NCBI GenBank assembly: GCA_028716745.1
Contig: JAQUPE010000007.1
Span: 1-34,775 of the forward strand
Length of the DNA: 34,775 nucleotides
Direction: 5' to 3'
Source of the DNA: Minisyncoccota bacterium
Lineage (GTDB): Bacteria; Patescibacteriota; Minisyncoccia; UBA6257; 02-FULL-45-10c
Shown: positions 26,198 through 27,514 of the stretch, piece after piece
Position numbering within the stretch: the first letter of the stretch is position 1
Layout: every line of letters starts with the position of its first letter
Notes under the pieces: generated by a model
Seen by the model: only the letters and a program-made list of their open reading frames with translations
What the model was told of the DNA's origin: nothing
Databases searched by the model: none
Translations under genes and position numbers: made by a program

Positions 26198-27514
26198 ATG
26201 AATCCCAAAATTTTTAAAGCCAATGATATTCGCGGGAAATACCCGCAGGAAGTTAATGAAAAGACGATTTTTGAAATTGCCAAGGCGTTGAGGGGGTATT
26301 TTGGCCTGAAGGCTAAAATTGTAATTGGACGCGATGACCGATTGAGTTCGCCGTCTTTATACAAGGAGGTTTTTAGAGGATTAGGCGGGAAAATTATTGA
26401 GGCAAAAATAATTACTACGCCGATGCTTTATTTTTTGGTTAATAAGCTAGGGGCGGACGGAGGAATAATGGTGACGGCCTCGCATAATCCGAAGAATTTT
26501 AACGGGCTTAAAATTGTCGGGAAAAAAGCCTCGCCGATAAGCGGGCTGGAAATCGGATCTTTTGCCTCAACTCGCTTCGTTCGTCCAGCGACTCGCTCGC
26601 TTGTCCTCGCCGATTCGGTCCGACTATTGGTCGGACACCATGCCGAATCGGTTGCGGGAGTTTCGGACAAGAGATACCAATTTCTTTATATTAGTTTTTT
26701 AAAGAAGTTTTTGAAATTAAAACGGCCGGTAAAAGTCGTTTTTGATTGTTCCAATGGAACAACCGGATTGGTTTTGAAAAAGCTTTTTCCGCGGGCGATT
26801 TTTATAAATAATAAGCTTAATGGAAATTTTCCTGCCCATGGGCCGGATCCAATGGCTGGGGGAGCGATGGAACAATTACAGTCGGCGGTCAAAAAGCATA
26901 AAGCAGATTTAGGAATAATTTTTGATTCTGACGGCGACAGAGTATTTTTTGCCGATGATAAAGGGAAAACAATAGATGCCGAGGATGCGGCTTTTATTTT
27001 GGCAGAAAATTATAAACAGCCGTTTGTTATTTCGGCTGATTATGGATATAGGATGAAACAGTACAAAACAATAATTTCAAAAGTTGGAAGATATTTTTTG
27101 AAAAAGAAAATGATTGATAAAAAGGCGAGTTTTGGAGCCGAGAGGTCTGGGCATTATTATTTCAAGGATTTTAATTATAGCGATAGCGGAATTTTCGCGG
27201 CAATTCAGATGATAAACTTTATTTCCGGAAAGAACGAAAAAATACCGGATTATTTAAATAAATTGCCGAAGCTTTACAGATTCAGCAAAAATTTCAAAGT
27301 TTCCGATAAAGAAAAAATTATTAATAGAGCTGAGAAATTTTATAAAAATAAAAAAATTAAAGTATCCAGTCCCGATGGATTGGTTGTTGAGGCAAAAGAT
27401 TTTAGATTTTGCCTAAGGCCTTCAAATACGGAAAATTTAGTCCGATTGAATGCGGAGGCGTTAAGTAAAGAGGCTTTAAGCAGGGGAATAAAAGAATTAA
27501 AACAAATTCTGTAA
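26198..27514 (+). CDS. Phosphomannomutase/phosphoglucomutase, with an in-frame palindromic insertion
   Basis: VTASHNPKNFNGLK, DSDGDRVFF, GAERSGHYYF, RPSNTENLVRLNAEA; atypical segment SFASTRFVRPATRSLVLADSVRLLVGHHAESVAGVSDK between domains I and II. Confidence 0.9.
   Translation: MNPKIFKANDIRGKYPQEVNEKTIFEIAKALRGYFGLKAKIVIGRDDRLSSPSLYKEVFRGLGGKIIEAKIITTPMLYFLVNKLGADGGIMVTASHNPKNFNGLKIVGKKASPISGLEIGSFASTRFVRPATRSLVLADSVRLLVGHHAESVAGVSDKRYQFLYISFLKKFLKLKRPVKVVFDCSNGTTGLVLKKLFPRAIFINNKLNGNFPAHGPDPMAGGAMEQLQSAVKKHKADLGIIFDSDGDRVFFADDKGKTIDAEDAAFILAENYKQPFVISADYGYRMKQYKTIISKVGRYFLKKKMIDKKASFGAERSGHYYFKDFNYSDSGIFAAIQMINFISGKNEKIPDYLNKLPKLYRFSKNFKVSDKEKIINRAEKFYKNKKIKVSSPDGLVVEAKDFRFCLRPSNTENLVRLNAEALSKEALSRGIKELKQIL
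26569..26671 (+). repeat. In-frame palindromic element inside the phosphohexomutase CDS
   Basis: Nested inverted repeats CTTGTCC 26600-26606/GGACAAG 26665-26671; CCGATTCGG 26610-26618/CCGAATCGG 26643-26651; GTCCGAC 26618-26624/GTCGGAC 26630-26636; preceded by an imperfect direct repeat ACTCGCTTCGTTCGTCC / ACTCGCTCGCTTGTCC. Confidence 0.75.

Follow-up and report, generated by a model that had tools for sequence, protein, structure and literature searches.

The phosphohexomutase locus

The stretch of DNA analysed (the window, 34,775 nucleotides of contig JAQUPE010000007.1) belongs to a Minisyncoccota genome of 660,737 bases in 15 contigs, which was found to be 98.3% complete. It carries a phosphohexomutase gene in which a foreign, palindromic segment lies in frame between the parts coding for domain I and for domains II-IV (Table 1). 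All four PGM/PMM Pfam domains scored above cut-off in this ORF, which gave the only PGM_PMM_I match in the host genome. The catalytic motifs, predicted to be intact, were conserved in the mutase alignment, where the TASHNP loop was invariant except for one residue. All data come from draft genomes of uncultured organisms, and the proteins and RNAs are known here from DNA alone.

Table 1. Features of the phosphohexomutase gene and its palindromic element in the window
Feature	Position	Strand	Basis
Phosphohexomutase ORF (PGM/PMM family), 438 aa, one-piece	26198..27514	+	Translation, Pfam
Domain I, residues 1-119; an ORF of its own in many relatives, the same-genus species included	26198..26554	+	Pfam, sister comparison
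TASHNP catalytic phosphoserine loop, in domain I	26474..26491	+	Sequence, alignment
Imperfect flanking inverted repeat GGAAATCGGATC (26548-26559) / GATACCAATTTC (26670-26681)	26548..26681		Weak here, significant over the family
Foreign segment, residues 120-158; replaces the approximately 20-nt ATGA-overlap junction of the sister's two ORFs	26555..26671	+	Comparison with sister gene
Palindromic element core	26560..26672	+	Covariance model R1, 116 bits
Third stem CTTGTCC/GGACAAG, 7 bp (26600-26606 with 26665-26671)	26600..26671	+	Named in the original prediction; present
Main stem CCGATTCGG/CCGAATCGG, 9 bp (26610-26618 with 26643-26651)	26610..26651	+	Covaries across copies
Apical stem GTCCGAC/GTCGGAC, 7 bp (26618-26624 with 26630-26636)	26618..26636	+	Variable, largely compensated across copies
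Domains II-IV; in relatives an ORF of its own with a separate ATG (sister species: MKYADLYISFLKKF)	26672..27514	+	Pfam, sister comparison
DSDGDR metal-binding loop, intact	26924..26941	+	Sequence, alignment
RPSNTEN phosphate-binding loop, intact	27416..27436	+	Sequence, alignment

The element is a GC-rich unit of approximately 110 bp that forms a long hairpin with nested stems. Three stems of 7, 9 and 7 bp were present where the original prediction had placed them; the ORF stayed open across all three and encoded the peptide given there. The segment is real, but the edges first proposed for it (26569-26671) were narrower than those obtained with the covariance model and, approximately, from the sister comparison. 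The main and apical stems overlap at base 26618, and the family consensus pairs the region of the third stem differently. The folding energy of the hairpin alone was unremarkable (z = -1.6, with 10 of 200 shuffles folding at least as well), and the energy of a single copy was dropped as proof of structure. In an alignment of 14 whole copies, the consensus fold had 27 pairs, and two-sided compensatory changes were found at 14 of these. The hairpin in the window stands above chance because it is repeated in the genome and the family and because its base pairs covary.

When the host gene was compared with that of the sister species, dN/dS was 0.11 for domain I and 0.15 for domains II-IV by NG86, and 0.24 and 0.26, respectively, by YN00. 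Both halves are under purifying selection, and mutase function seems to have been kept. The AlphaFold model had a PGM/PMM fold (mean pLDDT 81), and its best PDB matches were phosphoglucomutase/phosphomannomutase. Within the inserted peptide, for which the original prediction had suggested a tolerated surface loop, residues 125-156 were modelled as a linker without secondary structure at pLDDT 23-48, which is consistent with disorder and could partly reflect thin data (seven aligned sequences).

The mutase is split in the sister species and in much of the order

The same-genus orthologue was found to have no foreign segment and to consist of two ORFs, one for domain I (125 aa) and one for domains II-IV (280 aa), which overlap as ATGA and were matched separately by Pfam (L010:1130-2343). 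Host and sister mutases were 72-73% identical in both parts. The original prediction of an insertion into an ordinary one-piece mutase was not borne out, since this orthologue and many other relatives are already split at that place. Domain I was encoded by an ORF no longer than 182 aa in 54 of the 120 genomes of the order that scored above the Pfam cut-off. In a draw across the phylum, three ORFs of 234-275 aa were found among the approximately 150 matches listed, and nearly all other matches listed from outside the order were mutase ORFs of at least 400 aa. A protein scan of genome contigs with the mutase returned mostly distant one-piece mutases.

The two halves were also found apart, at a distance of 1.1 kb in G008, 1.3 kb in G031 and 33 kb in G040; in G042 and G057, each half was on a contig of its own. 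Between the halves in G008 (L025) lies a PP2C-type phosphatase-like ORF of approximately 300 codons. Since the gene of the split forms is in two ORFs, the catalytic serine and the metal site would be on separate chains. No paper describing a split phosphohexomutase was found in a literature search.

In a mutase tree of 76 rows, the split forms were found within one large part, and the families outside it were all one-piece. In the window's family (f1), nine rows were split and six were one-piece, and all six one-piece mutases had extra sequence at the junction of domains I and II, with 42-56 residues between the domains. A single origin of these six forms was rejected (AU test, p-AU 1.7e-7), and four changes between split and one-piece were needed in all 200 bootstrap trees. 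The covariance model recognised the element in only two mutases, those of G000 (the host genome) and G015, and the reading frame across it differs between the two. In G003 and G016, which belong to the same genus as G015, the junction segment has decayed. The element-bearing mutase of G015 (L101/L012) has an in-frame TAG in the part for domains II-IV, either a pseudogene or a sequence error.

The mutases of G006 and G007 have a second, related-looking palindrome of similar plan, as assigned by eye. This second type (motif like CGCTACGCCTCGC ... ACCAA ... GCTCCGTAG), which resembles the first in layout, was seen in mutase and mnmA genes at L009, L011, L304, L311, L313 and L314. In family f23 (loci L015 and L157), the junctions of G038 (fused) and G224 (split) are bordered by a 14-bp inverted repeat, ATCCCGTTAGARAC/GTYTCTAACGGGAT, with differing contents, and in the split genome the stretch is partly tandem-duplicated. 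One-piece mutases without an obvious element were found in families f15, f24, f6 and f17, indicating that fusion also arises, or has persisted, by other routes.

Copies of the element in other genomes and genes

The search for further copies that the original prediction had proposed recovered two more in the host genome (78-80% identity, E values of 4e-15 and 8e-14), making three in total. Both lie outside long ORFs. One is downstream of a gene resembling that of ribosomal protein S9, and the other is upstream of two genes, the first mraZ-like and the second methyltransferase-like (names assigned by eye from translations). With the covariance model, 42 copies were found in 13 of the 17 genomes of the window's family, with up to 12 in G004, and approximately 100 matches in 40 of the 227 genomes of the order. 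Weaker matches occurred in other families of the class, and all matches were confined to the window's CPR class. The possibility that the segment is ordinary sequence, shared by close orthologues and without other genomic copies, thus failed on both counts.

Many copies were intergenic and near gene ends, and both orientations occurred. Ten of 41 family copies were read in frame inside longer ORFs, with at least 60 residues of open frame to either side. The number of stop-free frames in the element was 85, compared to 70 in shuffles; this mild excess indicates that the openness of the element is largely a matter of base composition, and selection keeping the element stop-free was not retained as an explanation. 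The element gave no match in viral contigs, searched with one exact degenerate pattern, or in phage and plasmid collections, a weak negative; carriage by phage or plasmid was set aside, as no vector was found there. In a literature search limited to papers outside subscription, none on palindromic repeats in CPR bacteria was found.

Copies were read in frame within several unrelated genes. Relatives have a short form of tsaD, which in G008 is lengthened in frame by 120 nt of element. The insert in ligA measures 126 nt in G007 and 129 nt in G008, is read from the opposite strand and is missing from thirteen relatives; both sites were empty in most relatives. In mnmA, the element was in frame in G007 and in G072, a genome of a different family in which its peptide, ASTRFARPATRSLVLAASVLSNSGHHADTVAEVSDN, is nearly identical to that of the window, and a copy at the same site in G005 breaks the frame. 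An element was also found in the gene for a NifS-type cysteine desulfurase in G208 and, judged by the flanking peptide, in G015 and G016. These recurrent in-frame copies indicate that certain loops are hit repeatedly, like the hotspots of the Rickettsia palindromic elements (RPEs) (PMC3767692). The model of TsaD with its insert (mean pLDDT 64) was too poor to weigh on a surface position of the peptide.

The mnmA loop between GHYVRL and DKNKDQ (loci L298-L327; short form 63 nt) appeared as a hypervariable insertion hotspot, with palindromic elements or short tandem-like repeats in more than 15 of approximately 30 genomes, in frame except in G005. In G007 (L316), apparently two palindromic elements lie side by side in an intact ORF of 469 aa.

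Flanking arms and mobility

In 32 copies, each left flank was scored against reverse-complemented right flanks; the mean score was 16.2 for the right flank of the same copy and 9.8 for those of other copies. None of 2000 permutations was as high, and the result held in 18 copies without the common outer motif; the arms of the window copy itself were weak (rank 3 of 31). These flanking inverted repeats suggest either that the element prefers palindromic sites, and may insert where hairpins form, or that hairpin-templated synthesis, possibly as repair after insertion, makes the arms. At the tsaD site, where the loop is variable, comparison with relatives hints that the left arm is native and that they lack part of the right arm. 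By inspection, no target-site duplication was evident on the flanks, and no transposition event, parent transposon or mobilising gene (Y1_Tnp being the family searched) was seen; the element presumably is, or was, mobile.

Origin of the one-piece mutase

These findings very probably reflect the insertion of a non-autonomous dispersed palindrome at the junction of a split mutase gene, which fused two ORFs into the 438-aa chain. The element would have landed where the ORF for domain I meets that for domains II-IV and taken the place of the stop and start codons that overlapped there, and the two ORFs would have become one chain because the element is stop-free in the frame that was needed. Its approximately 38 encoded residues are predicted to serve as a disordered tether from domain I to domain II. 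The junctions of host and sister differ by approximately 20 nt beyond the insert, so this scheme needs in addition a small deletion or later changes. The split form was presumably the immediate ancestral state in this genus, and we infer from the gene sequence that the fused mutase is made and active. The palindrome most probably served, by accident, as a linker in frame that reunited the parts of a split enzyme.

If a one-piece mutase with the element were ancestral to the family, the split forms would have arisen later by loss of the element and gain of a new stop and start. This would explain why an element lies at the same place in several genera and why one insertion is common to three genomes of genus g3, but the outgroups are also split, genera differ in both reading frame and type of element, and far more losses would have to be assumed, every one of them leaving a neat overlap of start and stop. 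The rejection of a single clade of element-bearing forms points the same way, although taken alone it is compatible with one old gain and many losses. We consider this history unlikely. Even less credit is given to the idea that the element is of the REP/REPIN type and is mobilised by a RAYT (Y1 tyrosine) transposase. The short, palindromic and dispersed nature of the element would agree with it, and a Y1_Tnp gene lies approximately 0.7 kb from the mutase of G015; Y1_Tnp was absent, however, from 13 of the 17 family genomes, including G000, G004, G007, G008 and G014, which hold most copies, and the 110-bp unit is unlike REPs as defined by a length of 20-40 bp and a GTAG or CGTC tag (PMC3733652). 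The RAYT transposase was therefore rejected as the mobiliser.

A cis-acting RNA element between the halves (terminator, attenuator or translational coupler), with read-through incidental, would account for the covarying hairpin and for the many intergenic copies near gene ends. Against this, copies occur in both orientations, in mid-gene positions of unrelated genes and in different frames, no terminator was found at the hairpin in a scan of the window, and an Rfam scan of the window gave no match besides two tRNAs, which left no known RNA family as a candidate; such a role is highly improbable. That a repeat joined unrelated contigs within the mutase gene during assembly or binning can hardly be credited at all: repeats can cause misjoins in draft assemblies such as these, but both flanks belong together, in the right order, as parts of a single gene, five further assemblies likewise join this junction with added sequence, and the ORF is open with purifying selection on both halves.

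Fusion of a split mutase by an inserted palindrome is the preferred reading. It is also likely, with somewhat less assurance, that coding palindromes characterise this CPR class in general and have repeatedly reversed gene fission, at least three to four times in one family, with different palindromes at the same boundary giving a single-chain phosphohexomutase. Coding palindromes have so far been regarded as peculiar to Rickettsia and Wolbachia, apart from scattered cases in other groups. This behaviour is now found in an unrelated, streamlined group, in which split, fused and empty sites can be compared in close species, providing a natural test of how selfish DNA turns into protein and of a route by which split genes may rejoin. 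Moreover, the split forms reveal a putative phosphohexomutase in two pieces, one bearing the catalytic serine and the other the remaining active site, which is directly testable in the laboratory.

Comparison with known palindromic repeats and mutases

RPEs are dispersed palindromic repeats of 100-150 bp, found intergenically and in frame within unrelated housekeeping genes, that encode solvent-exposed added peptides and hit hotspots repeatedly in orthologues (PMC10969869, PMC3767692). The CPR element resembles RPE-1 to RPE-3, other RPEs and the Wolbachia WPE in being a palindromic repeat of approximately 110 bp with several copies per genome, although fewer than in Rickettsia, and in lying in frame inside mutase, tsaD, ligA, mnmA, nifS-type and other ORFs. 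It differs in organism group and in sequence, and in that it lies at a split-gene boundary and would fuse two ORFs, whereas an RPE is a tolerated insert in one. When its peptides were compared with the RPE/WPE families in NCBIfam, which we take to contain models of both, no match was obtained at E values up to 10. The original prediction of a Rickettsia-like coding palindrome in a CPR-type genome is thus supported by behaviour, which is that of an RPE-type element read as protein, and no sequence kinship was found in this peptide-level comparison.

REPs, tagged at one end (GTAG with RAYT; CGTC), are likewise palindromic and dispersed, with some copies inside genes (PMC3733652); the CPR element is longer, has several nested stems and is not accompanied by a RAYT in copy-rich genomes. 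Prokaryotic MITEs are short, non-coding and apparently non-autonomous, and some yield in-frame fusions (PMC10969869). The CPR element shares terminal inverted repeats with them (the outer stem and copy-specific arms); in contrast, its flanks are copy-specific inverted repeats in place of an evident direct target-site duplication. Finally, the mutase itself has the four domains and catalytic loops of the PGM/PMM alpha-D-phosphohexomutases, among them P. aeruginosa PMM/PGM (1k35), and these also gave the best fold matches. It differs from them in that about half of the order has a gene of its own for domain I, which appears to have been rejoined here by the palindromic element.
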